A stretch of 32,143 nt of DNA. Source: Actinomycetes bacterium (lineage in GTDB: Bacteria > Actinomycetota > Coriobacteriia > Anaerosomatales > Anaerosomataceae). The DNA is taken from assembly GCA_021372825.1 (NCBI GenBank), contig JAJFTR010000089.1, positions 1 through 32,143 of the forward strand, in the 5' to 3' direction. Below are positions 1-15,136 of this stretch, in pieces (position 1 is the stretch's first letter; every line of letters begins with the position of its first letter). The notes under the pieces are model-generated. The model made no database searches and had not been told where the DNA came from. It was given only the letters and a program-made list of their open reading frames with translations. The position numbers and the translations under genes are program-made.

Positions 1-1272
1 AGCCCCAAGAGCTCTTCCCTCCACCGTGTGTCGCCGGACCTGCCGGGGATGCGGTCGTCGTTCTCGGTGAACGGCGCCACATACACGTGGCCGCTGCCGA
101 CCGCCTCGACGTTCCTGAAGAGCGGGTGGGCCACAGACTCCGTCATGTCGTGTGACGCCTGCCATACCTACACGGGTTCGACCGGGCCGCACGGGTCGGC
201 GATGACGGTGAACATCGATCCGGCGTACCCGACGTGGTGGAAGACGGCCTACTTGAGCGGAAGTGCCAACGGCATGAACTCGACGACGGTCATCTGCGCC
301 AAGTGTCATGATCTGAACGGTGCGAGCAGTTCAAGCGCCTGGAGCAACCAGGTCCACGGTGAGAGCGACCATCACGGATCATCAGACGGCAAGTGCGTCC
401 TGTGCCACTCGCAGCTCCCGCACGGCTGGAAGCGTCCGCGCATGCTTGCCTACACGAGCGACGGCGCGCCATACGCCAGCACCGGCTTGCGTGCGATCCG
501 GCTTGCCAACCACACTGCGAGCGGGTGGAGCGAGCACGACTGCCAGACCTCGTGCGGCGAGCACGACAGCTCGGTGTCTCCGGTGTGGCCGCTCGTGCTC
601 GACCCGGATGCGCCCACGACTGGAGGAGTCGCGGGCAAAGTCACCGACTCCGCGACGGGCGCGGCGGTGAGCGGCGCTACTGTGAGTGTCGCTGGGAAGA
701 CCGCGACCACTGCGAGTGACGGCGCGTACGCCATCAGCGGGATCGCGGGCGGTACCTACACGATGACGGTCTCCAAGACGGGCTACACCACCTGGTCGCA
801 ACCGGTGACGATCACCAACGGGGTGACGCTCACCCAGAATGTCGCCCTTGTCGCGGGAACCGGCGGCACGAACCTCGCACTCGGCAAGTCCTTCACTGCC
901 TCGCACTATGAGAGCTCGGCCTACGCGCCGGGCAAGGCCGGTGACGGAAGCGACTCCACGTTCTGGTGGTCGAACAACACAGGCGGCGCGAGCACGACCG
1001 AGTGGCTGCGCGTCGACCTTGGGACGACGTACAAGATCAAAGAGACCGATATCGCCTGGTACGGCGACTACTGGGCCAAGGAGTTCCGCGTGTACACGTC
1101 GCTCAACGGGTCCACGTGGAACCAGGTGTACTCCACGACGACTGCGCCCAAGGGCACGTCTGTGGTGACCTTCACCGCCCGCGATGCACGCTATGTCAAG
1201 GTGGAGTGCCGCAGGACAGGGACGGGGCGCTCCACCGGTTATGGCATCGCGGAACTCAAAGTCTTCCAGTAG
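1..1272 (+). CDS. Multiheme cytochrome c-like surface protein with discoidin domain (5' partial)
   Basis: The frame is open from base 1, so the gene starts upstream; the GTG at 28 has no reason to be the true start. Three CXXCH heme-binding motifs are visible (CDACH near 151, CAKCH near 295, CVLCH near 394), followed by a DC-x3-CGEH cysteine pair near 541-564. From about 620 to 855 is a carboxypeptidase-regulatory-like beta-sandwich (G-x-V-x-D..G..V.GA.V ... DG.Y...G...G.YT). From about 874 to 1269 is an F5/8-type C (discoidin/CBM32-like) domain with the typical N-L-A-L-G-K start and W-L-R-V-D-L-G core. No membrane segment or sorting motif is seen in the visible part. The heme part resembles the C-terminal end of the 19-heme cytochrome at 5397. 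Likely role: an extracellular electron carrier that also binds a glycan or surface. The domain calls are firm, the function is inferred. Confidence 0.85.
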   Translation, partial: SPKSSSLHRVSPDLPGMRSSFSVNGATYTWPLPTASTFLKSGWATDSVMSCDACHTYTGSTGPHGSAMTVNIDPAYPTWWKTAYLSGSANGMNSTTVICAKCHDLNGASSSSAWSNQVHGESDHHGSSDGKCVLCHSQLPHGWKRPRMLAYTSDGAPYASTGLRAIRLANHTASGWSEHDCQTSCGEHDSSVSPVWPLVLDPDAPTTGGVAGKVTDSATGAAVSGATVSVAGKTATTASDGAYAISGIAGGTYTMTVSKTGYTTWSQPVTITNGVTLTQNVALVAGTGGTNLALGKSFTASHYESSAYAPGKAGDGSDSTFWWSNNTGGASTTEWLRVDLGTTYKIKETDIAWYGDYWAKEFRVYTSLNGSTWNQVYSTTTAPKGTSVVTFTARDARYVKVECRRTGTGRSTGYGIAELKVFQ

Positions 1273-1437: not shown

Positions 1438-2046
1438 ATGCGAAGAAATCCGAGAGTGCCGAACATGGCACGTCAGGTCGCGAGTGTGGCGGCTGTGGTG
1501 GCCCTGTCGGTTGCGTTCGCCGTCCTGACCGGCTGCACACATGAGAACCGGCCTTCTGCCGGATCCGGGAGCGGAGAATCCACCGCGGCCATCGGTGCCG
1601 CGGATGCAGGACAGGTGCCCGCAGCCCGTCCGTCACCGACACCGGAGAAAGCGGTCGAGGCGTTCCTGACGATCGCCGCACGCAGCTACTACAGTCTGGA
1701 TTCGACGATGGTGGCGCCGTACGTCACGCCGGACCAATGGGTGCGCGAGGATGCGTACATCCAGCTGAACCTGATGCAGAACCAGGCCATCGAGATGAAG
1801 CTCGAAGATTTCTCGGCCACGCAGGGAGCACCATCTTCCGCCGAGGCTACCACCGCCACCGTCAGGACACGCGAGGTCTGGCGGTGGCGTTACTGGGACC
1901 TTGTGACGCGCAAACCCAAGACGGAATGGGCGAAGACGGGGTACTCGATGCTCTACACACTTGAGCGGGTAGGCAGCGGATGGCTGGTCGCCTCGACCAA
2001 GGTGCTCGAGCAGTCGGGCGATACGTCGCCCACCGTGCTCGAATGA
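1438..2046 (+). CDS. Small lipoprotein, NTF2/IMS-like fold suspected
   Basis: The predicted protein has 202 residues. The ATG at 1438 is chosen because it leaves a compact signal peptide ending in a lipobox (L-T-G-C, Cys about 33) and has a purine-rich GGGGAG stretch upstream; longer in-frame starts add implausible Arg/Cys-rich sequence. After a Gly/Ser/Pro linker, residues about 70-190 have the pattern of a small alpha/beta cone domain: 'EKAVEAFLTIAARSYYSLD' at the start and Y-W-D-L ... Y-x-L-E-R-V-G-S-G-W-L-V at the end. This resembles IMS/NTF2-like domains, but I do not recognise a named family. It sits 10 bases before a ResB gene and is probably cotranscribed, so a role near cytochrome assembly at the outer face of the membrane is possible. 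Two comparable proteins follow the second ResB-CcsA pair. Confidence 0.7.
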   Translation: MRRNPRVPNMARQVASVAAVVALSVAFAVLTGCTHENRPSAGSGSGESTAAIGAADAGQVPAARPSPTPEKAVEAFLTIAARSYYSLDSTMVAPYVTPDQWVREDAYIQLNLMQNQAIEMKLEDFSATQGAPSSAEATTATVRTREVWRWRYWDLVTRKPKTEWAKTGYSMLYTLERVGSGWLVASTKVLEQSGDTSPTVLE

Positions 2047-2056
2047 GGGCGCACCC

Positions 2057-3373
2057 ATGAAGGCAGCCGCGCGCGTGTACACGCTTCTGAGGTCACGGCG
2101 TCTCGCTGTGTGGCTGATCATCGCCTTCATCGTATACGCCGCCTTGGCTACGACACTTTCCGGAGATGACTACAGCCGACCCTATGGCAGTTCGGTGTTC
2201 ATCGCGCTCGCCGCGTTACTCGGGGCGAGCACGGCGGCATGCGCGTGGGAGCGCACAAGGGCAGCGGTCCGGATGCGCGGAAGGCAGGGCGTCACACAAG
2301 GCGCGGTCCGGCGCCTTCGCGAGCATCCGCGCGCGGTGATCGATGTGCAAGTGGGCGTGGAGGACGTTCCCGTGCGCGTGAGCAAGGCACTGCGGAGCCT
2401 GCATCTTCGCGTGCAACGGTACGGAGAAGTGATAGACGCCCGGTCAGGAATCGGAGCGACTATCGGAAGCCCGCTCTTCCACTGCTCGCTCGCCTTGCTC
2501 TTCGTGGTGATCGCACTCGGACAACTCACGAGGACCGAAGGGCTGATGGGCGTCGTCGCAGGTGGCGCCAAGCCCGACATCAGGGAGTCCTACGGCGTGC
2601 TTGAAGCTGGGCCGCTCGCGGGGGAACTCAGCGGCCGCATCATCGCGGTGCCGAGGATAGAGCGGTCGTTCGTGGCGAACGGGGTCCAGCAGGGCGTCAC
2701 CCCATACGTGGAGATCCGCTCACCTGACGGGGCCGTTCTAGCCAGCGGGTACGCCTATGCGAACCACCCCGTGCGCTACCGGTCGATGCTCGTGCACGCG
2801 AACGACCATGGCTTGGCCGCGGTCGTCTCGGTCGTCTCGCCGGGCGGCTCACTCGAGCAAGAAGTGCTTCTGGACTACACGGCGAGCGGGTCGCAGGTGA
2901 CGCCGAACGGCTTCGCAGTGACGGGGCCTAGTGGCGAGACGCTTGCGACGGTGCTGTTGGACTTGCCGGAGTCAGGCGATGCCAGCGGCAGTGTGCCATC
3001 GGTTCGTGTGCGCGCGAACTCAGGTGCGTCCTCTCCTTCGCAACATGCGTCCATCGAAGCGGTCGTGCAGCAGGGCGATAGCGTCGATCTTGGCCAGGGG
3101 CTGGTTCTTACGGTCGGCCAGCTCACCACCTATGCGCGGCTCTCGGTTGTGGATGACGGCTCGGTGTACTACATCTATGCGCTGTTCGCCATTGCGGTGG
3201 CCGGCCTTTCGATCGCACTCCTCTCACCACCGCGAGAGGCGCGTGTGCTTCTTGTCGGCGAGGGGACCCCGCGGTTGCACGTCGATGTGCGACACAGCCG
3301 AGGAGACCCGCATTTCCCTGCTAGAGTAGTGGAGGCGCTTGAGCGCGCGGCAGGGGCGAAGGAGGACGCATGA
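2057..3373 (+). CDS. resB: ResB-like cytochrome c biogenesis protein (System II), copy 1
   Basis: A 438-residue membrane protein with the ResB/Ccs1 layout: two N-terminal membrane segments (about 17-34 and 46-63), a third at about 132-156 containing H142 in the F-H-C-S-L-A-L-L-F stretch, a large extracytoplasmic domain, and a last membrane segment at about 370-392. In the family, ResB with CcsA forms the synthase that carries heme across the membrane and attaches it to CXXCH cysteines of apocytochromes. The extracytoplasmic part is smaller and more divergent than in textbook ResB, typical of versions found beside multiheme cytochromes. The start follows the lipoprotein stop by 10 bases. It overlaps the next gene (ccsA) by 4 bases, so the two are translationally coupled. 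A second ResB at 8561 is only distantly similar. Confidence 0.85.
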   Translation: MKAAARVYTLLRSRRLAVWLIIAFIVYAALATTLSGDDYSRPYGSSVFIALAALLGASTAACAWERTRAAVRMRGRQGVTQGAVRRLREHPRAVIDVQVGVEDVPVRVSKALRSLHLRVQRYGEVIDARSGIGATIGSPLFHCSLALLFVVIALGQLTRTEGLMGVVAGGAKPDIRESYGVLEAGPLAGELSGRIIAVPRIERSFVANGVQQGVTPYVEIRSPDGAVLASGYAYANHPVRYRSMLVHANDHGLAAVVSVVSPGGSLEQEVLLDYTASGSQVTPNGFAVTGPSGETLATVLLDLPESGDASGSVPSVRVRANSGASSPSQHASIEAVVQQGDSVDLGQGLVLTVGQLTTYARLSVVDDGSVYYIYALFAIAVAGLSIALLSPPREARVLLVGEGTPRLHVDVRHSRGDPHFPARVVEALERAAGAKEDA

Positions 3374-4209
3374 CGCAGACCACCGAGATCGTCTTCATGT
3401 GGGTGACGGTGAGTCTCTACGCACTCGCCTCGGCCCTGTTCATCATCGGGTTCGTGTTCCGCAAGGAGCGCGTATCTTCCGTGGCCCTGGCAGTGACTGT
3501 GGTAGGACTGGTGCCTCACCTGGCCGCTATCGCTGGACGGTGGGTGCGTGTCGGTCATGGGCCGTTCATCGGCTTTTACGAGGTCGTGTCGAGCTACGCG
3601 TTCGTCGGTGTGGTCGCCTTTTGTCTGCTGTTGTGGCGTTACCGCTCCCTTCGGGCGACAGGGATCGTGTTGATGCCGCTCGCGTTCCTCGCTGTCGGGG
3701 GAGCGATGCTTGCGCCGAAAAGCGAGCTCCAGGTGACGGCGACGCTCGCCAGTTACTGGCTCGCTGTGCACGTCGCGTTCGCGAAACTCTCGTATGGCTC
3801 GTTCATCACCGCGTTCGGTCTCGCGGTGATACACATCATCCGCGATCGCAGGCCGGACGGCCCGATGGCGGCGCGCTTGGCGAAGCTTCCTCCCCAGGAC
3901 GTCATCGACGATCTCACATTCAAGTTCGTGGCGGCCGGCTTCATCTTCCTGGGTGTCATGATCGCCGCTGGCGCGATCTGGGCGAACGAGGCATGGGGTC
4001 GCTACTGGGGTTGGGACCCCATCGAGACGTGGTCGCTCATCTCATGGCTGTGCTACGCGGTGGTGCTGCACCTTCGACTGACGATGGGGTGGAAGGGCAG
4101 CCGCTTCTCGTGGGCAGCGATCGCTGCGCTGCCGGTGATGCTTTTCGCCGCAGTGGGTGTCGCTGTCGTCTACAACACCATCCACGGTGCGTATCTTACG
4201 GGCTACTGA
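3370..4209 (+). CDS. ccsA: CcsA/ResC heme-handling protein of cytochrome c synthase, copy 1
   Basis: A 279-residue polytopic protein. It carries the tryptophan-rich WWD motif (W-G-R-Y-W-G-W-D-P-I-E-T-W-S-L-I-S-W-L) near residues 209-227, the heme-presenting loop of the CcsA/CcmC/CcmF superfamily. Conserved histidines are seen before it (W-L-A-V-H-V near 133) and after it (V-L-H-L-R, and T-I-H-G-A-Y near the C terminus), matching the expected membrane and periplasmic heme ligands. The ATG overlaps the resB stop as ATGA and has a strong AAGGAGG site 5-6 bases upstream. Together with the preceding ResB it should form a complete System II synthase. The C-terminal I-H-G-A-Y differs from the more usual H-S-Y. 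Confidence 0.92.
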   Translation: MTQTTEIVFMWVTVSLYALASALFIIGFVFRKERVSSVALAVTVVGLVPHLAAIAGRWVRVGHGPFIGFYEVVSSYAFVGVVAFCLLLWRYRSLRATGIVLMPLAFLAVGGAMLAPKSELQVTATLASYWLAVHVAFAKLSYGSFITAFGLAVIHIIRDRRPDGPMAARLAKLPPQDVIDDLTFKFVAAGFIFLGVMIAAGAIWANEAWGRYWGWDPIETWSLISWLCYAVVLHLRLTMGWKGSRFSWAAIAALPVMLFAAVGVAVVYNTIHGAYLTGY

Positions 4210-4221
4210 GGAGCGACGCGT

Positions 4222-5238
4222 GTGGCAGAGAACGAGTCGGCTCCGGCAGCGCCGGAGAAGCGCCGAGGAGTGAGGCCTCGGGAGCTTGCGACCCTGATGG
4301 CGCTGGTGATCGTCGTCGCACTTGCGGGTGTCTGGTGGTTCGTATCGCGCGAAGACGGCGCCGCCGATCTGCTGCCGCCACCAGTGAACAGCGAATCACC
4401 GGTGAGCTATGCCGGGCAGTTCCCCTCGCCGGACCGGCCGCGGCTCCTCAATCCCTTAGGTCTTGCGCTGGGCGAAGACCGCCTATACGTAGCTGAATCC
4501 GACGCCAGCCGCATCGCGGTCTTCCGCCTGGACGGGAAGGAGCTGGGAACCATCGCGGTTCCTGTGGCTTCCGGTGCTGCGACCGCGTACCCGGTCGACG
4601 TGAGCATAGTGGACACGAGCACGATCGCCGTGGTGGATACCGCGGGCCAGCGAGTGCTGCTGCTTCCTGCCGATCCGGGCGCATCGGCACATGCCGTGGT
4701 GGTCGGTGACTCGACTGCACGAACTGCGCCCATACAACCCACGGCGGTGACTGCGCACGGCGATGAGGTCTTCGTGGCCGACGGCGTGTCACACGACATC
4801 AAGGTCTATGACTCTACTGGCGCGTACCTCCGCACGATAGGCCGCGCGCTTCGGCCCGCGCTCACTTTCGTCGGAGGCATGTGTGTTCTCGGCGATGCAC
4901 TCTATGTGACCGATTCGAATTCGGGACGCGTGCTGGTGCTCGACCGTGTTTCCGGCGTCAGACGCTCCTCTTTCCCCGATGAGCGGGCTCTTCCGAGAGG
5001 CATCGCGCCAGGGCCGTACGACGGACTGCTGGTCGTGGACACGTTCGGACGGACGATCGACATAGTCGCGCGCAGTGGCGCCGGGATCGTCTCCATCACC
5101 GATGAGTCGGCTGCGCAGGGAGGTGGCCTGAAGAGTCCGAGGGATGTCGCGTGGGACCCAGCTGTCGGCCGCGCGTACGTGACCGACGCGAGCCGCGGTC
5201 TTGTCGTCGTGTTCAACATCGTGGAGTCCGCGCCCTGA
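4222..5238 (+). CDS. Membrane-anchored NHL-repeat beta-propeller protein
   Basis: A 338-residue protein starting at GTG with GAGGAG about 8 bases upstream and 12 bases after the ccsA stop. It has a short Lys/Arg-rich cytoplasmic N terminus, one membrane segment at about 24-41, and then an extracytoplasmic domain with repeated NHL-like blades (patterns such as L-N-P-L-G-L-A-L..D-R-L-Y-V-A-E-S-D-A-S-R-I-A-V-F and D-A-L-Y-V-T-D-S-N-S-G-R-V-L-V-L, then R-A-Y-V-T-D-A-S-R-G-L-V-V-V-F). Five to six blades are discernible. NHL propellers are frequent companions of multiheme cytochrome clusters and usually act as scaffolds. No catalytic residues are evident. Position between ccsA and the 19-heme cytochrome suggests a scaffold or docking role (inference). 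Confidence 0.85.
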   Translation: MAENESAPAAPEKRRGVRPRELATLMALVIVVALAGVWWFVSREDGAADLLPPPVNSESPVSYAGQFPSPDRPRLLNPLGLALGEDRLYVAESDASRIAVFRLDGKELGTIAVPVASGAATAYPVDVSIVDTSTIAVVDTAGQRVLLLPADPGASAHAVVVGDSTARTAPIQPTAVTAHGDEVFVADGVSHDIKVYDSTGAYLRTIGRALRPALTFVGGMCVLGDALYVTDSNSGRVLVLDRVSGVRRSSFPDERALPRGIAPGPYDGLLVVDTFGRTIDIVARSGAGIVSITDESAAQGGGLKSPRDVAWDPAVGRAYVTDASRGLVVVFNIVESAP

Positions 5239-5283
5239 GGTGCGTGCGAGACGTGCTTACGGGCACACAGCCGTGCTAACGTG

Positions 5284-5292
5284 TGCAATAAT
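5284..5292 (+). promoter_or_regulatory. Candidate extended -10 promoter (TGC-AATAAT) for the 19-heme cytochrome
   Basis: TG-C-AATAAT matches the -10 consensus at five of six positions with the extended TGN element, and no -35 box is obvious. It would give a leader of nearly 100 bases. Two small inverted repeats flank it: GCACAC at 5263-5268 with GTGTGC at 5281-5286 (which overlaps the -10 and could be an operator or a weak terminator), and GCGCTC at 5313-5318 with GAGCGC at 5331-5336 in the leader. The rest of the 158-base gap holds nothing else I can identify. Confidence 0.4.
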
Positions 5293-5396
5293 AGCGAGCA
5301 GAACAGGCAGTTGCGCTCTGGGCGTGATGCGAGCGCTCTTAGACGAGCCGTTCGGGTCAGCGGATCGCGGGGGGATGTGAAACGGCGCTGGAAGCG

Positions 5397-8300
5397 ATGA
5401 CACGTCGGCTAGCCAGCACCAGAGTCCGGTTGGTCGCCGTGGTTTTCTCCGTAACCGTCGGGTTGTCCGGAGGCAAGATCGGTGTTGCTTGTGCCACCAC
5501 CGTTCCCCACGGCGGGTTCGATGCGTCCGCCGCTATCTGCTACGACTGTCACAAGCCTCATGTCGCGGCGAGTGACCGTTACCTGTTCAGGGTCTTGCCA
5601 GCGGACGGCGACTCGGGCGAGATCGCGCTTTGCTACTCATGCCACGACGGCTCAGGCGCGAGCACCAATGTGAAGACGGGGGGCGCGAACTCCTTTGTTC
5701 TCACGAGTGGACACAGGGTCGAGAACTTGCCCGAGGCGGCGATCGATCTCGATCTGACGAACCGGTGTTCGTCGTGTCACTCGCCGCACTCCTCGTACGC
5801 GACAAACCGCCGACTTCCGAAGAGGTCGATAGTCACCAGTAGTGGTAGCTACGCAGTGACCGGCGCCGACACGTCATGGTGTCTGGCATGTCACAACGAT
5901 TCGAACGACTGGTACGTCTCGACGACCTCGACCCCCTATCCCTCGACCTCGAACCCCACGAAAGACTCCACGGGATACCCTGTATGGGGGACCTTCCCCG
6001 GCCGGACAGTGTACCTTGATCCGGCCAAGAACGGACACATGCGCATCCCTGCGGGCTTGCCGCCGGACCCGATGGCGCCGAGCCAGACGGCGACTCGTGT
6101 CGCGGGCGACTGCCTGTGGTGTCACAGCGCACACCGCGGCGCCAACGCCTACGACGGTCTGCCCGCCACGTTCACGGTACCTGTCGCGTCCAGTGTCGTA
6201 ACCGACCGCACGCGTGGTGACTACGCGGCTGCGTGCTTCGCGTGCCACGGCGGCGGCTCATGGGAGGAGTCGGGAGCTGTCGACATCCAGCGTTATGCGG
6301 TGAAGTCCCCTGACGACACGTCAGCGACCAACGGCCATCGCATCAAGACCACAGGAGCCGCATTGCCTGTGAATGCGCCTCTTCCCTGTTTCGAGTGTCA
6401 CAACCCGCATGGCTCGGCTCGCGGGAACAAGATGCTTCTTGCCGACACTCTGGGCAAAGACCTCGAGGCGACCACGAGCGCCGGTGTGGCGATCACGGCG
6501 GCTGCGGATGTGCGGAAGTTCTGCTTCACCTGCCACTCCACCTCGGACGCGACGCCCAAGGTATGGGATTCTGTGGCAGGCGTCTACGCAGACTGCACGG
6601 CCGGCATGATGTTCGAAGGCCTCCGCCGAGACGGCACGCTTCTCACGGGTCAGACGAAGCCTTCGGGATACGGCCTTGACCAGAACTACCTAAGGCTCAA
6701 GGCGCTCGGCGGTGCGGAAGACAAGCACGCGCAGGCATCTACGAAGAGCTGTTATGACTGTCACGGCAAGAGCTATGCAGGGGCGGGATCGCCGAACGTG
6801 CATGCGCCGACTCTGGGGGTGTCCAATGGCGCAACGGCATGCTATGGGTGTCATTCCGAGTACCTCGCCATGGAGGACAACCTCCTTTCGGCCACGGGTG
6901 GCGCGAGCAGACTCAACAGCTATCACCATGTGCTCGGCAGCACGGCGTTGGATGGAGACCATGCTCCCGCGACGCAATCGTCATACCCCACGTCGACGAG
7001 CGATGTGTTCTGTGTCTCGTGCCACGGCGACCACGACACGTTCAATTCCGACAAGGGCGCGAACTTGAGGATGACGATCTCCGCAAGCAGCGTTTCTGCA
7101 ACGAACACCGACTTCATCAACCCCGGGACCACTGGCGCGCCCGGCATCTGCGTGTCGTGCCATTCCAGTTCACTCACCAAGCAGAATGGTGATCAGCGAA
7201 GTAGTGGCACCACGTACACCGTGAGTGTCGACGCCACTGGTTTTGCCGCATCTGCGCACCAGTACAAGGTCACGGCGACCTTCACGGCATCACCTTTCCG
7301 CGGTGACTGCGTGAAGTGCCATAACGATGAGATGACCAAGTCGTACCAGTCGAGTTCGAGCCTGATGGCGACGATGACGACCTTCGGCGTGCACTCGAGC
7401 CCTGAGTCAAGGATCCTCGCGAGGCTTGGTGGTACACTGAACGACCCCTACGAGGAGGCGTTCTGCTTCAAGTGTCACAGCAAGGCGAGCGACAGCCAGG
7501 GTTCGACGTGGACGGTCAGCTACGCGCGCGACCGCTATGGTGTAGCCTCGATGAGTGCGACATCGGTCGCGATCTACGGGCAGGTGGTTCTGGGAAGCGG
7601 CGCCTTTTTCGCCCATGACCCTCGTGACTACTCGAACAAGCACAAAGCGTCGCACTCGGACGAGACGACCGGCTATATCGGACAGGTGGCGGCCGCCAAC
7701 AAGCACGTCGAGTGCGCTGATTGTCATGATCCCCACGACGCGGGCGCAGGGGCTCGGACGATTGGCGGCGCCAACGGCAACAAGGTGGGACCTGCGCAGT
7801 ACGGGGTGCAGGCCTTGAGCGTCACGCTACCCTCGACCGCGTGGAGTACTCCCACCGCCAGCGCCTACTCATGGGTCGAGACAGCAACGTACGAGTATCA
7901 GACATGTCTCAAGTGCCACACTCGTGGAGCAAACGCCGCGCTCGAAAGCTGGGGTGGCGCCGGGGCGGATGCGTGGACGGACGTCGCGCTCGAGTTCAAT
8001 CCCAAGAACACCTCGTATCACCCCGTGATGGGAGTGACGAGCAACGACTCGAGCGTGTACACGGCTTGGATGAAGGATCCATGGAAGTCCGTCGCAACTC
8101 AGACGATGGCATGCTCCGACTGTCACGGAGATGTGAGCGCAGCTGCACTCGGGCCCCATGGGTCCAGCATCAAGCACATCCTCAAAGGCTACTGGCCCCT
8201 CGACTCGAGCGGGACCCCCTATACCCTTTCGGCAGTTTCGGAAGACACGAGGGGCTTGCTGTGCGCGCAGTGCCATGTGGTCGACACTTCGACGGGACCG

Positions 8301-8561
8301 AGAGCTCACCTGAACACCAACCATCGCAGTGAGTACTGTTACCGGTGCCACATCATCGTGCCTCACGGCGGAATGCTCCAAGGGCTGATCGGCGACGCAG
8401 ACAGCACGATGCCATCCCGCTATGCCTACAACAACGTCAAGGGCAACTTGTGGGTGGCGGCGTATAAGGGTGATGGTGACAGCAGCCGAACGGACTGTTT
8501 CGTCACCGGCAGCAGTGGTTGCGGCTCGCATTCGACGACCTCTACGACCGGTAACTGGTAG
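5397..8561 (+). CDS. Exported multiheme c-type cytochrome with 19 CXXCH motifs
   Basis: A 1054-residue protein with a Sec-type signal peptide (basic N terminus, hydrophobic residues about 11-30, small residues A-C-A before the likely cleavage). I count 19 CXXCH motifs spread over the whole mature chain, from C-Y-D-C-H near residue 48 to C-Y-R-C-H near 985. Several have the C-x-x-C-H-x-P-H or C-H-N-P-H-G-S form of doubled-CXXCH cytochromes of metal-reducing and syntrophic bacteria. There is no C-terminal membrane anchor or LPXTG signal; the protein ends in a DC-x7-CGSH motif and a Ser/Thr/Gly tail ending in W. Between heme clusters are low-complexity Ser/Thr-rich stretches. Likely role: electron transport across or beyond the cell envelope. 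It lies between two ResB-CcsA sets, the obvious maturation machinery. A GGAAG site precedes the ATG. Confidence 0.93.
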   Translation: MTRRLASTRVRLVAVVFSVTVGLSGGKIGVACATTVPHGGFDASAAICYDCHKPHVAASDRYLFRVLPADGDSGEIALCYSCHDGSGASTNVKTGGANSFVLTSGHRVENLPEAAIDLDLTNRCSSCHSPHSSYATNRRLPKRSIVTSSGSYAVTGADTSWCLACHNDSNDWYVSTTSTPYPSTSNPTKDSTGYPVWGTFPGRTVYLDPAKNGHMRIPAGLPPDPMAPSQTATRVAGDCLWCHSAHRGANAYDGLPATFTVPVASSVVTDRTRGDYAAACFACHGGGSWEESGAVDIQRYAVKSPDDTSATNGHRIKTTGAALPVNAPLPCFECHNPHGSARGNKMLLADTLGKDLEATTSAGVAITAAADVRKFCFTCHSTSDATPKVWDSVAGVYADCTAGMMFEGLRRDGTLLTGQTKPSGYGLDQNYLRLKALGGAEDKHAQASTKSCYDCHGKSYAGAGSPNVHAPTLGVSNGATACYGCHSEYLAMEDNLLSATGGASRLNSYHHVLGSTALDGDHAPATQSSYPTSTSDVFCVSCHGDHDTFNSDKGANLRMTISASSVSATNTDFINPGTTGAPGICVSCHSSSLTKQNGDQRSSGTTYTVSVDATGFAASAHQYKVTATFTASPFRGDCVKCHNDEMTKSYQSSSSLMATMTTFGVHSSPESRILARLGGTLNDPYEEAFCFKCHSKASDSQGSTWTVSYARDRYGVASMSATSVAIYGQVVLGSGAFFAHDPRDYSNKHKASHSDETTGYIGQVAAANKHVECADCHDPHDAGAGARTIGGANGNKVGPAQYGVQALSVTLPSTAWSTPTASAYSWVETATYEYQTCLKCHTRGANAALESWGGAGADAWTDVALEFNPKNTSYHPVMGVTSNDSSVYTAWMKDPWKSVATQTMACSDCHGDVSAAALGPHGSSIKHILKGYWPLDSSGTPYTLSAVSEDTRGLLCAQCHVVDTSTGPRAHLNTNHRSEYCYRCHIIVPHGGMLQGLIGDADSTMPSRYAYNNVKGNLWVAAYKGDGDSSRTDCFVTGSSGCGSHSTTSTTGNW

Positions 8562-9862
8562 TGGCGCACAGGCGGCCTTCTTCTCGCATGACCAGGCATC
8601 TCGCGCGATTCGCACGGCTACTCCGGAACCGCCGGGTGACGCTCGTCACCACGCTTGCGGCCGTCGCTTCTTTGTCGTGCGTCGCTCTCGTTCCTCAGCG
8701 GCCCTCCGTCGGGTCCGTGGCGCTTCCCGGCGTCGTCGTCGCGCTCGGCCTGGACCGTGTGGTCACCACCTGGTGGTTCAGGGTCCTGGTGACTCTTGCG
8801 ACGGCGCAGCTCGCCTCGGTGGTGGCATATGTGGCGCCGCGCGATGCTCGTCGCGTTGTCAGGTCACGTGGGCCGGCGTCCCACGATCCGTTCGTCGTGG
8901 ATGATGAGCAGGCTCTTGTGCGCGTCCTCCGGCACCAGGGTTACAGGCCTGTCGGCCGCGGCGAGCCGAAGAGACGCTATCTCAAGAACGGACTGGGGTA
9001 TCTTGGCCCCACCCTGCTTCACACAGGCATGCTGCTCGCCATGTTGGGTGTGCTTGTCGTGACCCTCACGCGCAGCGTCGGTCTGGTGACCATGGTGGAG
9101 GGGCAGACGCTCCCGCAGGGCGCGGTGCTCGAGGACGCTGTGCGCGGTCCTCTCGGGGCGCCAGCCGTGTTGCCTTATACGCTCACGCTCGCGGGCATGT
9201 ATGCGGAGTTCTGGGACAACGGGGAGCCCAAGACCTATGTCGGCACGTATGTCGTAGATGACGGTTTGCACGCGGAAAGGGTCGACGTCCAGACGAATCA
9301 CCCAGCGGTCCTGCAGCGGATGCGCCTCCATCAGGAGCAGCGCATAGGGTACGCTTTCTTCGTGACGCTCGAAGGGTCACCGACGCCGCAACGGCTGCGT
9401 CTGGACCTTCCGCAGCCCCTTTCCCCCGAGCAAGCGACGTACAAGGACCGCGTGCTCGAAAGTGGGGAGACGATCCGGGCGAAGTGCACCGTCGACGAGC
9501 GCAGGCGGGAGCCGCCGGTTCTCACCTTGAGGCTGGCGCGAGGCGGCCAGACGGTGGGAGAGGCGCGTTTTGAAAGGAGCGCTCGCGAGGAGTTGGGAAC
9601 CTACACCGCCACCGTAGACGGCATCAGACGATGGTCTATCGTGACTGTCGAGCAAAGCAGAGGTTACGGGCTTCTGTTCTCGAGCTTCTTCGTGGTGTTC
9701 GTCGGGGCGGTGGCGCTCTATGCCCTTGTGCCGCGCGAGATCACGCTCAGCCGTTCGAGTGACGGACGCATGGTGGCGTCGTGGTATGCGCCTCGGTTTG
9801 CGTCTTTGTACAGCCATGAGCGGGAGTCCTTGCGCGCCGCAGCACAGGGCGAAAGGAGCTGA
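8561..9862 (+). CDS. resB: ResB-like cytochrome c biogenesis protein (System II), copy 2
   Basis: A 433-residue membrane protein with the same order of elements as copy 1: N-terminal membrane segments (about 26-44 and 71-91), a segment at about 147-169 containing H154 (T-L-L-H-T-G-M-L-L), a long extracytoplasmic region and a C-terminal segment near 379-398 (L-L-F-S-S-F-F-V-V-F-V-G-A-V-A-L). GTG at 8561 shares its first base with the cytochrome stop codon, implying coupling; ATG at 8588 is an alternative start, and neither has a strong ribosome binding site. Sequence similarity to copy 1 is low by eye, so this is an old or separately acquired paralogue rather than a recent duplicate. It is followed 5 bases later by ccsA copy 2. 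Confidence 0.8.
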   Translation: MAHRRPSSRMTRHLARFARLLRNRRVTLVTTLAAVASLSCVALVPQRPSVGSVALPGVVVALGLDRVVTTWWFRVLVTLATAQLASVVAYVAPRDARRVVRSRGPASHDPFVVDDEQALVRVLRHQGYRPVGRGEPKRRYLKNGLGYLGPTLLHTGMLLAMLGVLVVTLTRSVGLVTMVEGQTLPQGAVLEDAVRGPLGAPAVLPYTLTLAGMYAEFWDNGEPKTYVGTYVVDDGLHAERVDVQTNHPAVLQRMRLHQEQRIGYAFFVTLEGSPTPQRLRLDLPQPLSPEQATYKDRVLESGETIRAKCTVDERRREPPVLTLRLARGGQTVGEARFERSAREELGTYTATVDGIRRWSIVTVEQSRGYGLLFSSFFVVFVGAVALYALVPREITLSRSSDGRMVASWYAPRFASLYSHERESLRAAAQGERS

Positions 9863-9867
9863 GAGCG

Positions 9868-10689
9868 ATGAGCGGGCTGCTGGAAGTGCTCGATCCAGGC
9901 GCGCACCTCGTAGCTGCGGTGCTTTACGCCCTCGCATTCGTTCTGGCGCTGTTCAGCCGGCAGACCGGCGACGTGCCGGATCGCGGTTCGAAGATCGCAG
10001 GAGCCGCTGGCCTTCTCGTTCACCTGACCGCTATCGCCGGTCGCTGGTTCGCTGTGGGACACGGCCCTTTCGTCACCATGTACGAGGACCTTTCGGCCTA
10101 CTCGGCGGTAGTCGGCGCGATCGCCCTGTACTTAGCGATGCGTGGTGACCAAGTCGCGCGCGCGCGTGTGCCCATGTACCCCGTCGCCTTCCTCATGCTC
10201 GGCGTCGCTTTGTACTCGGGGCCGCAAACCTCCAATCTCCCTCCGACCTTCTCGGGTATGTGGCTTGTCTTGCACGTGTGTTTCTACTTCCTCGCTTTTG
10301 GAACGGCGGTCACCGCGGGCGCTTCCTCGGTGTTGGTCTTGCGCGCCGCGAGCGGGCCGGCCGATGCTGACGCGGCGTCCTGGGAGAGGTTCGACGCGCT
10401 CGCGTACCGGTACGCGGGGCTTGCTTTCGCGTTCTGGGGCGTAGGGATGTTGAGCGGCGCTGTGTGGGCTTTCAATGCCTGGGGACGATACTGGGGCTGG
10501 GATCCAGTGGAGACGTGGTCGCTCATCACTTGGCTCATGTTCGGCGTGTACCTGCACTTGCGGCGGTTCTTCGGATGGCAGGGGAGGCGCGCCGCAGTGC
10601 TCTTGGCGGTGTGCCTCGGACTGGCGGTGATGTCGCTGTTCGGAACGACGGCGCTCTCCGATTCGTTGCATTCGGTGTACTTCCAATGA
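9868..10689 (+). CDS. ccsA: CcsA/ResC heme-handling protein of cytochrome c synthase, copy 2
   Basis: A 273-residue polytopic protein with the WWD motif (W-G-R-Y-W-G-W-D-P-V-E-T-W-S-L-I-T-W-L) near residues 204-222, the W-L-V-L-H-V motif near 132-137, Y-L-H-L-R after the WWD loop, and a C-terminal L-H-S-V-Y close to the canonical H-S-Y. The region L-x-V-H-L-T-A-I-A-G-R-W...G-H-G-P-F in the N-terminal half is nearly the same in copy 1, so these two CcsA proteins are clearly paralogous. AAAGGAG lies upstream. With resB copy 2 it should form a second heme-attachment synthase, either redundant or specialised for a different apocytochrome. Confidence 0.92.
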   Translation: MSGLLEVLDPGAHLVAAVLYALAFVLALFSRQTGDVPDRGSKIAGAAGLLVHLTAIAGRWFAVGHGPFVTMYEDLSAYSAVVGAIALYLAMRGDQVARARVPMYPVAFLMLGVALYSGPQTSNLPPTFSGMWLVLHVCFYFLAFGTAVTAGASSVLVLRAASGPADADAASWERFDALAYRYAGLAFAFWGVGMLSGAVWAFNAWGRYWGWDPVETWSLITWLMFGVYLHLRRFFGWQGRRAAVLLAVCLGLAVMSLFGTTALSDSLHSVYFQ

Positions 10690-11174
10690 GACGCCCACAC
10701 ATCATCATGGCGCTCTTGGTGGTCGCGCTGTGCGCCGCCTGCTCGCAGGCGCCGGATGTTTCGACCGATCCAAGCGCGGTGACAGCGGCGGTCACGCGCT
10801 ACAACCGCGCGCTTGTCCGGGCGTTTGCCGAGCAAGACATGAACGAGCTCGATCAGGTTGCGACAAGAGACCAAACGTACACGGAGTACCAACTGATGGC
10901 GGCACTCGGCGAATCGCGTGCACGAATGCTCGCATCCCTTCGCCACATCACCTTCGGGGACGTCGCATTCTCGTCGGACTCCTCGGCCACGGTCGCTACC
11001 ACCGAGACGTGGGACTACATCCACCAGAGCATGGACACGAGCGAGACGCTGCGGGAGGAGAAGGGTATCGTCTACCATCTGCGATACGATCTGGTCCAGG
11101 TCGGCGATCGCTGGCTCGTGGACCGCGTCACCTCGCTCGACGACACGTCGAGCGCTCCGGCAACAGGGCAGTAG
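10686..11174 (+). CDS. Small lipoprotein of the cytochrome cluster
   Basis: The predicted protein has 162 residues. The ATG at 10686 overlaps the ccsA stop (ATGA) and gives a short signal peptide with lipobox L-C-A-A-C (Cys 19). The mature part begins with a helix (A-V-T-R-Y-N-R-A-L-V-R-A-F-A-E-Q-D) and ends in strands such as Y-H-L-R-Y-D-L-V-Q-V-G-D-R-W-L-V-D-R-V, the pattern of small NTF2/IMS-like domains, as in the lipoprotein at 1438. No catalytic motif is visible and I do not recognise a family. Lipidation would place it on the outer face of the membrane next to the cytochrome synthase. Confidence 0.7.
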   Translation: MRRPHIIMALLVVALCAACSQAPDVSTDPSAVTAAVTRYNRALVRAFAEQDMNELDQVATRDQTYTEYQLMAALGESRARMLASLRHITFGDVAFSSDSSATVATTETWDYIHQSMDTSETLREEKGIVYHLRYDLVQVGDRWLVDRVTSLDDTSSAPATGQ

Positions 11175-11175
11175 C

Positions 11176-11709
11176 ATGGTGCATGGGACGACACCCGCCA
11201 CGCGCACGGCCGGCCGAGCGGATCCCCGAGGCCGCTCACGGCATCAGGCCGATGTTCTCGGGGCGATGGTACTCGTGGTCGTGATCGCAGGCATTGCGCT
11301 AGGCGTTTCGAGTTGCGGCCCCAAGGACTCTGGCCCCGCTTTTGAGCACCCGGGTGCAACGACCGTGGAAGAGCTGCTGACGTTACGCGCCAAAGCGGTG
11401 CGCGAAAGATCGGCCTACGCGAAGTTCTTCGAGGACCCGAAGCTCGCGGATGCTCTCGCGCAAGGCACGTCGGTAGCCGGTGGTGCTGCGGCGATACCGG
11501 ACTGGAAGCCGCCGTACGTGAGTGCGATCGAGGGGGACAAGGCCGAGGTGGTCGTACGCTGGGTCGCCTCCGAGCGGTTTCCTGGGTGGCCCGAGGCCAC
11601 GGTCTTCGTCGTTCGCCACGTTGATGGCCGGTGGGTGGTCGTCGACGCTCTGGATGACACGGCGCCCTTTCCTAAGCCGGCTTCATCCGCAGAACTCGAA
11701 GGTCGCTGA
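11176..11709 (+). CDS. Membrane-anchored or lipoprotein-like small protein
   Basis: The predicted protein has 177 residues from the ATG at 11176, directly after the previous stop. It has a basic N-terminal stretch (residues 1-30), a hydrophobic segment (about 31-45) and V-S-S-C (about 46-49), so it is either a single-pass protein or a lipoprotein. ATG 11266 would give a conventional short signal peptide, and which start is used is uncertain. The remaining part has a helical region rich in E/A/K and a C-terminal E-A-T-V-F-V-V-R-H-V-D-G-R-W-V-V-V-D pattern, again like the end of an NTF2-type domain. It is the last gene of the cytochrome island and has no assigned function. Confidence 0.6.
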   Translation: MVHGTTPATRTAGRADPRGRSRHQADVLGAMVLVVVIAGIALGVSSCGPKDSGPAFEHPGATTVEELLTLRAKAVRERSAYAKFFEDPKLADALAQGTSVAGGAAAIPDWKPPYVSAIEGDKAEVVVRWVASERFPGWPEATVFVVRHVDGRWVVVDALDDTAPFPKPASSAELEGR

Positions 11710-11787
11710 TGCACCATCGTTCATGAATCACGGTTCCTCTCTCCGTACCCAGTGACTTCGCGCAGGTATGAGAGGCGAATCGTTACT

Positions 11788-11805
11788 TCACACTCGAACT
11801 TGTGA
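11788..11805 (+). promoter_or_regulatory. Inverted repeat TCACA-N8-TGTGA upstream of the Rex-like gene
   Basis: TCACA (11788-11792) and TGTGA (11801-11805) form an inverted repeat about 50 bases before the Rex-like start codon. The half-sites are those of Rex operators (TGTGA...TCACA) but in the opposite order. It may be an autoregulatory operator. No convincing -10/-35 pair is visible in the 145-base gap, although an AT-richer TTAATA lies at 11814-11819. Confidence 0.3.
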
Positions 11806-11854
11806 TAGCCTGCTTAATAGGTATTCAGAGCAGCTACTCACGTGGAGGTCTGTG

Positions 11855-12514
11855 ATGTCCGAAGGACGCGGTGCGCCAGAGGCCACCTTGTACCGCTTGT
11901 CCTTGTACCACTGCTACCTTGGAGAGTTGCTGCGTGTGGGTGCGCCTGACCGGATCACCTCTCGGCAGCTTGCCGAGGAGCTCGGCATCAAAGAGGAGAC
12001 GGTCCGCCGTGACATCTCGTTTGTCGGCGACATCGGGCGTCCTGGAGCGGGGTATGAGCCCGAGGTGCTCTACCGGGAGTTCACGGACTTCCTCGGACTG
12101 ACTGACGAGTACCCGATCGCGATGATCGGAAGCGCTCGTATGCTTGAGGCTCTGCAGGTCGTCTTTCCCTCGGAGCGCTATGGCGTGCAACCTGTCGCGT
12201 TGTTCTCGGAAATCCCCGAAGATGCCGGCACGACGGTGGGCGGTGTCAGCGTCCAACATCTCACCGACATCGCGCGGATCGATCCTGACCTGGGCGTCAA
12301 GGTAGCGCTCGTGGCGTGCTCGCCGGGGTGGGTGCAGATCACCCTGGATCTGCTTATCGGCGCCGGGGTCACTGGTGTGCTGTTGCTGACTCCGGTCATC
12401 CGTATCCGCAAGCCAGAGGGCATGGTCGTGACCCAAATACGCATGCCGTGTGACATTAAGTCGCTCGCATGCCGGTGCCAGGCCCCTGCAGGCATGTTCG
12501 GCACCGCGCAGTAG
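11855..12514 (+). CDS. Rex-like redox-sensing transcriptional regulator, atypical nucleotide site
   Basis: A 219-residue protein; ATG 11855 has GGAGG 6 bases upstream, and the longer in-frame start at 11768 lacks this. Residues about 9-70 match the Rex winged-helix domain: P-E-A-T-L-Y-R-L-S-L-Y, then I-T-S-R-Q-L-A-E-E-L-G-I, then V-R-R-D-I-S-F-V-G and G-x-P-G-A-G-Y. The second half has the expected Rossmann-like order, but the glycine-rich loop that binds NAD(H) in Rex (G-x-G-x-x-G) reads G-S-A-R-M-L (92-97). The C-terminal region has C199, C206 and C208, unusual for Rex. In the family, Rex represses anaerobic respiration genes until NADH releases it. Here the ligand may differ. It sits between the cytochrome island and the quinone-related genes. 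Confidence 0.8.
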   Translation: MSEGRGAPEATLYRLSLYHCYLGELLRVGAPDRITSRQLAEELGIKEETVRRDISFVGDIGRPGAGYEPEVLYREFTDFLGLTDEYPIAMIGSARMLEALQVVFPSERYGVQPVALFSEIPEDAGTTVGGVSVQHLTDIARIDPDLGVKVALVACSPGWVQITLDLLIGAGVTGVLLLTPVIRIRKPEGMVVTQIRMPCDIKSLACRCQAPAGMFGTAQ

Positions 12515-12556
12515 CCCGAACGAACGCGCCGGCCACGGCTAGCGGTCCATCGAGCG

Positions 12557-12565
12557 TGATATACT
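12557..12565 (+). promoter_or_regulatory. Candidate extended -10 promoter (TGA-TATACT)
   Basis: TGA-TATACT matches an extended -10 with five of six consensus bases. No -35 box is evident. Predicted transcription start is near 12572, which leaves only about 10 bases before the ATG at 12582 and about 64 before the TTG at 12636; this favours the downstream start of the radical SAM gene. Confidence 0.45.
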
Positions 12566-12635
12566 ACGGTGTCCAGCTTGTATGCCGGCAAGCCGTGTCC
12601 CCGACGGCTCCTCTGCGCAAGGAGGCGCACCGTCG

Positions 12636-14414
12636 TTGCCGCACCCTGATCTTGTGTTACTGCACGCTCCCTCAGTCTATGACTTCAGGGAGCGCTCTAT
12701 CATGTTCGGACCTGTTTCGGACCTGGTGCCGTCGAGTCCCATATTCGAGATGTACCCGCTCGGCTTCACCACGATGGCCGAGTACATGGAGCGTCACGGC
12801 CTGACGGTGCGCATCGTGAATTTGGCGATGCATATGCTCGCCAAGCCGACATTCGATGTCGAGAAGGCCATCCGGGAGATGGATCCGCTTGCGTTCGGTA
12901 TCGACCTTCACTGGCTGCCCCACGCCCACGGATCCATCGAGATCGCACGCATCTGCAAGAAGTACCACCCCGACACACCGGTCATCTTCGGGGGACTGTC
13001 GGCCACGTACTTCCACGAAGAACTCGTGCAGTACCACTGCGTCGACTATGTCGTTCGTGGGGACTCCACAGAAGAACCGTTCACACAATTGATGTACACG
13101 CTTCGGCGAGGCGGTTCGGTGTGCGACATCCCGAACGTCACGTACAAGACGTCCGATGGCAGCATCGTCGTGAACGACCTGTCGTGGGTACCCGACACGT
13201 TCGACCACGTGAAGCTCGACTACAGCTTCAGCATGCGCTCCGTGATTCGCGACCGTGACATGACGTCGGCGTTGCCCTTCAAGGGTTGGCTTGGGTATCC
13301 GGTGACGGCGTCTCTCACGTGTAGAGGTTGCACGAACCAGTGCCCTACGTGCGGCGGTTCCGCGTACGCGTTCGCACGGCACTTCGGCCGCAAGCGTCCT
13401 GCGTTCCGCGATCCCGAGCGACTGGTCGCCGACATCGCACACGTCGCTAAGCACATCCCCGGCCCCGTCTTCGTTCTCAACGACTTCCAGCAGGCGGGGC
13501 GCGCATATGTCGAAGAGTTCATCCGGGGGCTCCGACGCATCAACTTCAAGAACCCCATCGGGTTCGAGTTCTTCACGCCTCCCAGTGAGGAGTTCTGCGC
13601 GTTCCTCGGCGAGAACCTCAACGACTGGTCTATGGAGGTCTCGTGTGAAAGTCATGACGACTCCGTGCGGGCGGCGTTCGGCAAGCACTATACGTTCGGG
13701 GACGTGGCGACGTCCATCGAATACGCGTTCAAGCACAACTGCACCCGCTTCGACCTGTACTTCATGACGGGCATCCCTCGGCAGACGGCGCAGTCAGTGC
13801 TGGACACGGTGCCTGCGGTGCGTGAGTTGTACACACACGTCGGTAACGACGGTCGGCTGCTCGCTTTCATCTCACCGATGGCCCCGTTCCTCGATCCCGG
13901 GTCGATGGTGTTCGACAACCCCGAGGCCTACGGCTACACATTGCGAGCGCGCACTCTCGAAGAGCACCGTCAGCTGCTTCTGCAGCCCTCCTGGGAGCAT
14001 ATCCTCAACTACGAACCCGACGCGATGACGCGTCTTGAGATGGTGCAGGCGACGTACGAGGCAGCCATCGGTTTCAACCGCATAAAGGCGGAGGTGGGCA
14101 TCGCTGACAGCGCTACGGCTGCCAAGACCGAGTCTCGCATCAGCGCGGCGCGTGACGTCATGGCGCGCATCGACGAGATCATCGAGGCTTCCGATGGCGC
14201 TTCCCGCAACGCGCGGCTCGAGGATCTCCGTCATGAGATAGATGAGCTCAACGAGAACACCGTCTGTCAGAAGTCCGAGCTCAACTGGCCTGCCTCTGTG
14301 CGGCCGATACACATTTTCTCCAACATCGCGCTATGGTTCCGCGTGACGCTCGAGACTCTGTTTCCGAGACTTCGGAAGTACGATCCTCGCCCTGGCCACT
14401 CGGAGGCTTCGTGA
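12636..14414 (+). CDS. B12-binding domain / radical SAM protein (Ta0216-like)
   Basis: A 592-residue protein from TTG 12636, preceded by AAGGAGG at 12619-12625. ATG 12582 would add 18 residues but has no ribosome binding site and lies almost at the predicted transcription start. The N-terminal part (D-L-V-L-L-H-A-P ... G-I-D-L-H-W-L-P-H ... V-I-F-G-G-L-S-A-T-Y-F) has the layout of a cobalamin-binding domain, without the classic D-x-H-x-x-G. The radical SAM motif C-x3-C-x2-C is seen as C-T-N-Q-C-P-T-C near 13330-13353, with an extra Cys three residues earlier. The F-E-M-Y-P-L-G-F and R-G-D-S-T-E-E-P signatures recall the Ta0216-like family of uncharacterised B12/radical SAM proteins. Residues past about 480 are helical and Glu/Arg-rich. 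The substrate is unknown. Its end overlaps menG by 4 bases. Confidence 0.85.
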   Translation: MPHPDLVLLHAPSVYDFRERSIMFGPVSDLVPSSPIFEMYPLGFTTMAEYMERHGLTVRIVNLAMHMLAKPTFDVEKAIREMDPLAFGIDLHWLPHAHGSIEIARICKKYHPDTPVIFGGLSATYFHEELVQYHCVDYVVRGDSTEEPFTQLMYTLRRGGSVCDIPNVTYKTSDGSIVVNDLSWVPDTFDHVKLDYSFSMRSVIRDRDMTSALPFKGWLGYPVTASLTCRGCTNQCPTCGGSAYAFARHFGRKRPAFRDPERLVADIAHVAKHIPGPVFVLNDFQQAGRAYVEEFIRGLRRINFKNPIGFEFFTPPSEEFCAFLGENLNDWSMEVSCESHDDSVRAAFGKHYTFGDVATSIEYAFKHNCTRFDLYFMTGIPRQTAQSVLDTVPAVRELYTHVGNDGRLLAFISPMAPFLDPGSMVFDNPEAYGYTLRARTLEEHRQLLLQPSWEHILNYEPDAMTRLEMVQATYEAAIGFNRIKAEVGIADSATAAKTESRISAARDVMARIDEIIEASDGASRNARLEDLRHEIDELNENTVCQKSELNWPASVRPIHIFSNIALWFRVTLETLFPRLRKYDPRPGHSEAS

Positions 14415-15136
14415 CGCCGATGCATGACCCCGCAGCCGGTCGCCCGACGACCGAGGGTGTGAGGCGTACCTTCTCCACCATCGCGTCGCGCTACGATCTT
14501 TTCAACTCTGTCTCGAGTCTTGGCCTGGACCGCTATTGGCGGAGTGTTGCTGTACGGCATGCGGAGCTCACGCCACGAAGCGTGGTGCTCGACGTCGCCG
14601 CGGGCACGGGCGATCTTACGATGGCCATCGCACGCCAAGGCAGGCCGAAATCCGTGATGTCGACCGACTTCGTTGCCGAGATGCTTGACGTCGCCCGCAA
14701 GAAGGCCCAAGACTACCAGGGTCCGACCGCTATCGAGTTCGAGGTCGCCGATGCGCAGGCGCTTCCTTTCGATGACGCCTCGTTCGACGTGGTCACGGTC
14801 GCTTTCGGCGTCCGGAACATGCCGGATCGAGCCGCGAACTTCCGCGAGGCCAAGCGGGTCCTCAAGCCGGGCGGCCGCTATGTGGTCCTCGAGTTCAGCC
14901 GCCCGCCGTTCGTGCCCTTCCGGTCTATGTACTACGCGTATCTGAAGACGGTGATCCCCGTGCTAGGAACACTTCTTACGGGCGATCGCCCTTCGTTCTT
15001 GTATCTGGGCGAATCGATACGCGCCTTCCCATCGCAGATGAGCTTGGCGCGCGAACTGTACGCAGCCGGTTTCAAGAAGGTTTCGTGGCACAACCTCACC
15101 TTGGGTATCGTCGCGATCCACGTCGCACAGGTGTGA
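14411..15136 (+). CDS. menG: Demethylmenaquinone methyltransferase (MenG/UbiE family)
   Basis: A 241-residue protein from GTG 14411, which overlaps the preceding stop as GTGA with GGAGG 4 bases upstream; ATG 14420 is a possible alternative. It has the UbiE/MenG signatures: F-S-T-I-A-S-R-Y-D-L-F-N near 21-32, G-L-D-R-Y-W-R, the SAM-binding motif D-V-A-A-G-T-G-D-L-T at 61-70, F-G-V-R-N-M-P-D-R and E-A-K-R-V-L-K-P-G-G-R. It should add the final C-methyl group of menaquinone, using S-adenosylmethionine. This indicates a menaquinone-based electron chain, the expected donor for multiheme cytochromes. It is coupled to the radical SAM gene, so the latter may also act in quinone chemistry (inference). 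Confidence 0.93.
   Translation: MTPMHDPAAGRPTTEGVRRTFSTIASRYDLFNSVSSLGLDRYWRSVAVRHAELTPRSVVLDVAAGTGDLTMAIARQGRPKSVMSTDFVAEMLDVARKKAQDYQGPTAIEFEVADAQALPFDDASFDVVTVAFGVRNMPDRAANFREAKRVLKPGGRYVVLEFSRPPFVPFRSMYYAYLKTVIPVLGTLLTGDRPSFLYLGESIRAFPSQMSLARELYAAGFKKVSWHNLTLGIVAIHVAQV

Follow-up and report, generated by a model that had tools for sequence, protein, structure and literature searches.

We have analyzed a 32,143-nucleotide window, contig JAJFTR010000089.1 (hereafter C75) of an Actinomycetes bacterium, in which two ResB-CcsA cytochrome c synthases of the System II type lie among multihaem cytochromes and small lipoproteins. The assembly (GCA_021372825.1) comprises 1.94 Mb and is 99.5% complete. 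A preliminary description of this DNA had listed nine genes in the order lipoprotein, ResB, CcsA, NHL propeller, 19-haem cytochrome, ResB, CcsA and two small lipoproteins, and we found them in exactly this order, all on the forward strand. The first, lipo1 (1438..2046; lipobox LTGC), is a lipoprotein of predicted intermembrane-space (IMS)/NTF2-like type and the companion of ResB1 (CcsB; 2057..3373; PF05140, 1.7e-16), which is followed by CcsA1 (ResC; 3370..4209; PF01578, 1e-35; TIGR03144). A membrane-anchored NHL-repeat beta-propeller (4222..5238; PF01436, 4.7e-13) separates this first pair from cyt19 (5397..8561), a cytochrome with 19 counted CxxCH motifs, a C-terminal tail domain (8337..8558) and a putative role as client of the second pair; in relatives, the NHL protein is usually found directly upstream of a 17-19-haem cytochrome. 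There follow ResB2 (CcsB; 8561..9862; PF05140, 5.4e-15), CcsA2 (ResC; 9868..10689; PF01578, 6.1e-33; TIGR03144), lipo2 (10686..11174; lipobox CAAC), which is likewise predicted to be IMS/NTF2-like and is the companion of ResB2-CcsA2, and lipo3 (11266..11709, alternative start 11176), a small lipoprotein of a separate family that is conserved between CcsA2/lipo2 and a Rex gene. The last of these had been described as a lipoprotein or anchored protein; of its two candidate starts, the later one, at 11266, yields a well-formed lipoprotein signal (VSSC), and lipo3 is probably a plain lipoprotein. Directly upstream of lipo1, also on the forward strand, positions 1..1272 hold the 3' part of a gene for a giant multihaem cytochrome, the presumed client of the first pair, which the preliminary description had not mentioned. 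Three CxxCH motifs and CarboxypepD_reg and F5/8C domains remain in this part, and its intact orthologues (L113, L119, L122 and L127) carry 33 CxxCH motifs.

Relatives found by way of the cytochrome belong to the Coriobacteriia, several of them bearing the name Anaerosomatales, with EMTCatB1 the closest; most are draft assemblies, and their genes were called with our own open reading frame (ORF) scripts. The preliminary description had read the island as symmetric, with one cytochrome between two synthases. This arrangement was rejected on synteny. As judged from gene order, the island is two tandem cytochrome-to-synthase cassettes, because the first pair follows the 33-haem orthologues at separate loci in relatives and thus belongs to the cytochrome at 1-1272. 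Cassette 1 consists of this truncated cytochrome and lipo1-ResB1-CcsA1, and cassette 2 of the NHL protein and 19-haem cytochrome with ResB2-CcsA2-lipo2-lipo3. Intact 33-CxxCH orthologues are followed by lipo1-ResB1-CcsA1 in L113, L122 and L127, and likewise in L119, where lipo1 was located in the same position by a profile search. Genomes G002 and G017 carry cyt19-ResB2-CcsA2 at a chromosomal place separate from the 33-haem cytochrome and its lipo1-ResB1-CcsA1, and most other family members have cassette 2 alone (NHL-cytochrome-ResB2-CcsA2-small proteins-Rex). Among the genera sampled, just two others (L045 and L052) keep the complete gene order with both cassettes together. Within the genome itself, a third lipo1-ResB1-CcsA1 trio occurs on contig C30, downstream of a 15-haem cytochrome with the same kind of tail (L067). 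In G011 and G013 (L049 and L059), cassette 2 is tandemly duplicated, such that cytochrome-ResB2-CcsA2 occurs twice.

The two CcsA copies are clearly paralogous (37.5% identity, 1e-50) and the two ResB copies barely alignable (30% over 46 amino acids, E = 0.004), as had been proposed. PF05140 and PF01578 score above their curated cut-offs in both pairs, and the NCBIfam TIGR03144 matches lie under theirs. In System II, CcsA-ResB brings haem out to its WWD site and joins it to CXXCH, and roles have been assigned to the WWD motif and to periplasmic and transmembrane histidines (PMC10663686). An alignment of both pairs and the C30 copy revealed that CcsA1 and CcsA2 retain WGxYWxWDPxETW, the WWD motif, and the shared histidines, and that both ResBs keep the transmembrane histidine; on these residues, both pairs look catalytically competent. 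The genome encodes three ResB-CcsA pairs in total, and a CcdA/DsbD-type electron donor (PF02683, 7.5e-15) was detected on contig C20 (G000:C20). These pairs resemble System II (ResB/CcsB-ResC/CcsA) in their PF05140 and PF01578 components, WWD motif, conserved histidines and DsbD/CcdA-type protein, but differ from it in that a genome holds several of them, that every pair has a multihaem cytochrome and an IMS-like lipoprotein as neighbours, and that System I is also present. In a ResB tree of 85 rows, ResB1 and ResB2 fall into two deep clades (support 100/98), and these clades track different cytochrome tail types: within the ResB2 clade (43 rows), 42 members are preceded by a cytochrome with a PHGG tail and none by one with a PHGW tail, while all 11 PHGW-type partners belong to the ResB1 clade. 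This supports the earlier suggestion that each pair may serve a different client. No ResB2 relative was present in the plasmid records searched.

Homology links lipo1, which lies immediately before ResB1, to lipo2, which lies immediately after CcsA2; lipo3 is of an unrelated family. Copies were counted by profile searches of whole genomes that had not been chosen by lipoprotein. Across 34 genomes, 48 of 53 copies lie on the same strand as a ResB gene and within 4.5 kb of it (34 directly adjoining and 14 more within that distance), where about 0.2% would be expected by chance; across 248 Coriobacteriia genomes, 73 of 84 copies lie within 4.5 kb of ResB. Chance proximity was rejected on these two counts. 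Lipoprotein and ResB occur together in 55 of the 248 genomes, ResB only in three and the lipoprotein only in one, G034, which is 65% complete; thus 55 of 56 lipoprotein genomes carry ResB, and the refuting condition set in the preliminary description, lipoproteins occurring widely without ResB-CcsA, was not borne out. Within the order, 54 genomes have both, one the lipoprotein only, three ResB only and 11 neither (Fisher 2e-9). The same lipoprotein comes right after CcsA in Desulfobulbaceae, Desulfuromonadales, Nitrospirota and Geobacter argillaceus. Two contigs from Verrucomicrobia encode ResB together with the lipoprotein domain in a single unbroken ORF (L194, ResB residues 37-443 and lipoprotein domain 512-627; L210, residues 14-368 and 447-567). 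Since it is hardly ever found in genomes without ResB and is fused to ResB in some bacteria, the lipo1/lipo2 protein looks like an unrecognized partner of the adjacent ResB-CcsA machine. The idea that the small lipoproteins are accessory factors is therefore strongly supported for lipo1 and lipo2 by linkage, co-occurrence and fusion.

An AlphaFold model of lipo2, with lipo1 included in the alignment, has a confidently predicted helix-plus-sheet domain (mean predicted local distance difference test score, pLDDT, 88.6). Its best match in the PDB is the intermembrane-space domain of ARC6 (5d9r; Z 17.9, root-mean-square deviation 2.3 over 129 residues), and the model gives lipo1 and lipo2 an ARC6/PARC6-IMS-like, NTF2-like fold. 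Profile matches were weaker: PF13355 (ARC6-like_IMS) matched 5 of 15 members with a best E of 0.0035, and PF25155 (NTF2_YvbJ) 6 of 15 with a best E of 0.001, the lipo2 of the window scoring 18.9 bits against a cut-off of 25. ARC6 and PARC6 (PDB 5d9r, 5had and 6jzn; Z 16-18) share with the lipoproteins not only the fold but also the use of a membrane-attached domain, which in their case lies between two membranes and binds a partner, PDV1/PDV2, there (PMC5877594). They differ in a sequence identity of 11-15%, a role in plastid division and the lack of a link to haem.

The tail of cyt19 recurs in the 1-1272 cytochrome and in relatives as a common C-terminal domain, in which PHG(G/W) follows a few residues after the last CxxCH, and a stretch of variable sequence leads on to Cys, Cys and His and usually a terminal Trp. 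In cyt19 it reads CxxCH-x3-PHGG ... C-x7-C-x2-H ... W, with the C..C..H at 8496-8531, and in the 1-1272 cytochrome it spans about 367-588, with the motif CQTSCGEH at 541-564; the 33-haem type has further domains beyond it. The domain had no match in Pfam or the PDB, PDB searches returned no usable solved structure of the tail or the cytochrome, and a search by fold, using the AlphaFold prediction for the final 295 residues (pLDDT 69), gave no match. The genome encodes five tail cytochromes; most of its other multihaem cytochromes are without a tail, as are the small cytochromes encoded in the same clusters. Some tail cytochromes are very large, with 48 CxxCH motifs in 2649 amino acids (L055 10808-18757) or 75 in a single ORF (L161 and L167). 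The proposed restriction of these synthases to very large cytochromes was too narrow, as 5-7-haem cytochromes with the same tail precede ResB in Desulfobacterota. Tail and ResB are present together in 53 of the 248 genomes; five have ResB only and one the tail only (G071, a weak match, E 4e-5). Within Anaerosomatales, the respective counts are 52, five and zero, with 12 genomes having neither (Fisher 7e-10). We claim dependence of the tail on ResB at the level of the genome only.

The Cys, Cys and His of the tail may form a non-canonical haem site or a recognition or ligand hairpin. Their spacing is Cys-x(2-21)-Cys followed by Cys-x(1-6)-His, and CxnCH, in which His comes right after the second Cys, is absent from the window cytochromes and from most relatives. 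We consider it a live possibility, a little under an even chance, that the motif, instead of being a haem site, forms a disulfide hairpin presenting a distal His ligand or serves as a recognition or sorting tag, either of which would be compatible with a specialized System II. Gaps of 2 to 21 residues between the cysteines and of 1 to 6 before the histidine would be natural for a hairpin, and the variability of the latter favours a ligand or disulfide hairpin; to our knowledge, such spacing does not occur in haem c motifs. Conserved histidines outside CxxCH are, moreover, already numerous, with about 22 conserved distal histidines for 19 haems in a 16-sequence alignment, a number that does not separate 19 haems from 20. 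On the other hand, a few close homologues have CxnCH at the very same place (L182, L211, L220, L223, L226, L229 and L233), such as CLGGPCH in L211, CSGAICH in L182, CDTASTECH in L226 and CYAGCHSH in L220, compared with CFAGCDDH in L231. Some Geobacterales (L168, L170, L173, L196 and L208) have single-Cys tails, which cannot make that hairpin. Both kinds of variant favour a haem site, which on the motif sequences we regard as possible but doubtful. Slightly more tentative still is the fuller proposal, namely that Cys-x(n)-Cys-x(m)-His would be a previously undescribed kind of covalent haem c site, in which the ligating His can stand apart from the second Cys, and that dedicated ResB-CcsA and an IMS-like lipoprotein would have evolved to load it, ordinary CxxCH being servable by System I. 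The single-Cys cytochromes of Geobacterales (SCxxH...EAW) have no ResB directly after them, and three are followed, or nearly so, by a radical SAM gene.

Wolinella succinogenes uses separate System II enzymes for its CX15CH and CXXCK clients (PMC12285233). Its CcsA1 (for MccA, CX15CH) and NrfI (for NrfA, CXXCK) resemble the pairs described here as dedicated synthases for clients with an unusual site (PMC12285233, PMC10663686), but they are fused CcsBA proteins with no lipoprotein known, and Cys and His (or Cys and Lys) are adjacent in the client motif. OmcZ and other extracellular cytochromes are similarly multihaem with one non-standard spacing, haem 1 of OmcZ having a 14-residue Cys-Cys loop (PMC9473688), although OmcZ keeps Cys and His adjacent and was not matched in PDB sequence searches.

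We think it probable that the window encodes a specialized System II in the form of two tandem maturation cassettes, each with a giant tail cytochrome, its own ResB-CcsA and an IMS/NTF2-like lipoprotein, in an Anaerosomatales bacterium that has a complete System I as well. The giant multihaem cytochrome with its tail domain, presumably exported, is in each case encoded beside its own synthase and lipoprotein. CcsA-ResB would move haem across the membrane and attach it to the cytochrome, while the lipoprotein, anchored next to ResB on the outside of the membrane, would bind the apocytochrome, plausibly via the C-terminal tail, and present it to the synthase. NrfG/CcmI of System I bind the C-terminus of apo-NrfA (PMC12285233), and the lipoprotein would resemble them in this proposed binding of a client C-terminus, but they are tetratricopeptide repeat proteins of System I rather than IMS/NTF2-like lipoproteins beside System II. 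The tail would then be either a handle for the client-holding lipoprotein or an unusual haem site. The genes, the ResB clades and their partners, the linkage and fusion of lipoprotein and ResB, the co-occurrence of tail and ResB, the lipoprotein fold and the intact catalytic residues were all computed; what we infer is that each pair has its own client, that the tail is recognized, that these pairs attach the haem and that the role is extracellular.

Several observations weigh against a specialized System II. The client labels on the ResB tree derive from the very loci by which the cassettes were defined, and likeness of fold does not establish function. Because genomes belonging to a single order are not independent of one another, the P values make the evidence look stronger than it is. 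A strict tie between the tail and an adjacent ResB was rejected, for an initial tally, in which 30 of 30 cytochromes adjacent to ResB had the tail motif, was biased by the choice of loci; without that bias, ResB lies within 5 kb downstream of 58 of 132 tail cytochromes and not of the other 74, and 42 of the 100 ResB loci lack a tail cytochrome in the 5 kb upstream. Pairing is not one-to-one on these counts, and some synthases may work in trans. Of the 84 lipoprotein copies, eleven have no ResB within 4.5 kb, and four of these that were inspected (L213-L216) sit in the same cytochrome locus with ResB absent.

Those four loci, in which lipo1 persists, can also be explained if lipoproteins, tail and ResB-CcsA co-occur simply as a gene set for extracellular electron transfer, with the lipoprotein a part of the conduit and not of haem attachment. 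Lipoproteins co-occur with tail cytochromes about as often as with ResB, and in L217 a tail cytochrome adjoins lipo2 with no ResB. We nevertheless consider this account unlikely, given the ResB-lipoprotein fusions in Verrucomicrobia, the position of the lipoproteins directly beside ResB-CcsA and not beside the cytochromes, and the lack of such a partner for c14, c7 and c11, the remaining cytochromes in these clusters.

System I is complete elsewhere in the genome, with CcmA, B, C, E and F on contig C79 (L068, G000:C79, 9243-16116) and CPSKY (CxxxY) in CcmE; CcmF-sized ResB-like matches occur alongside ResB in nearly all family genomes. The dependence of the tail on ResB is thus not due to a missing System I. 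This same completeness could point to ordinary redundancy, in which extra System II copies came with the cytochrome islands and do nothing beyond the capability of System I, but within the order not one genome has tail cytochromes without ResB, even though 12 lack ResB, and we hold redundancy to be improbable. That both synthases act on the single 19-haem cytochrome between them, as the physical order in the window, L045 and L052 would allow, is very improbable given that pair 1 lies behind a different cytochrome at separate loci in most relatives, that cassette 2 is complete by itself in most family members and that the ResB clades track different tail types. Beside the System I genes on C79 lie genes for haem biosynthesis and a CcsA paralogue resembling HemX.

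Downstream of the cassettes lies a gene for a Rex-type redox-sensing repressor (11768..12514, forward strand; PF06971 and PF02629), a neighbour conserved by synteny. In most family members the cassette is followed by this repressor, a B12-binding radical SAM protein and a UbiE methyltransferase (11768-15136 in the window), a gene order that suggests redox-controlled expression of the cassette and a tie to quinone metabolism. Several relatives have, between CcsA2/lipo2 and the Rex gene, a putative membrane protein of 123-127 amino acids with an RTIFF.R.EWDPAVV motif (L042 8351-8722; L045 13168-13551; L048 8068-8439; L052 7618-7989; L054 11840-12211). Positions 1-743 of the window are 94.75% identical to the end of contig C14 (L099 17492-18234, G000:C14), which terminates in a cytochrome with 45 CxxCH motifs. 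C14 and C75 may be neighbours, the assembly having been broken by tandem paralogues or strain variants.

Descriptions of System II usually name CcsA, CcsB and thiol-redox proteins only, and searches of the open-access literature turned up no account of a lipoprotein that assists ResB. A lipoprotein that across a bacterial class is nearly always found with ResB, recurs beside ResB-CcsA in several phyla and is sometimes fused to ResB would be a new System II component and a candidate answer to how System II chooses one giant client among many. The tail domain provides a sequence handle for finding giant cytochromes that depend on System II, and it makes haem c attachment without adjacent Cys and His directly testable. 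Both questions, that of the lipoprotein and that of the tail, relate to organisms that live in the iron-reducing subsurface and in electrode communities.

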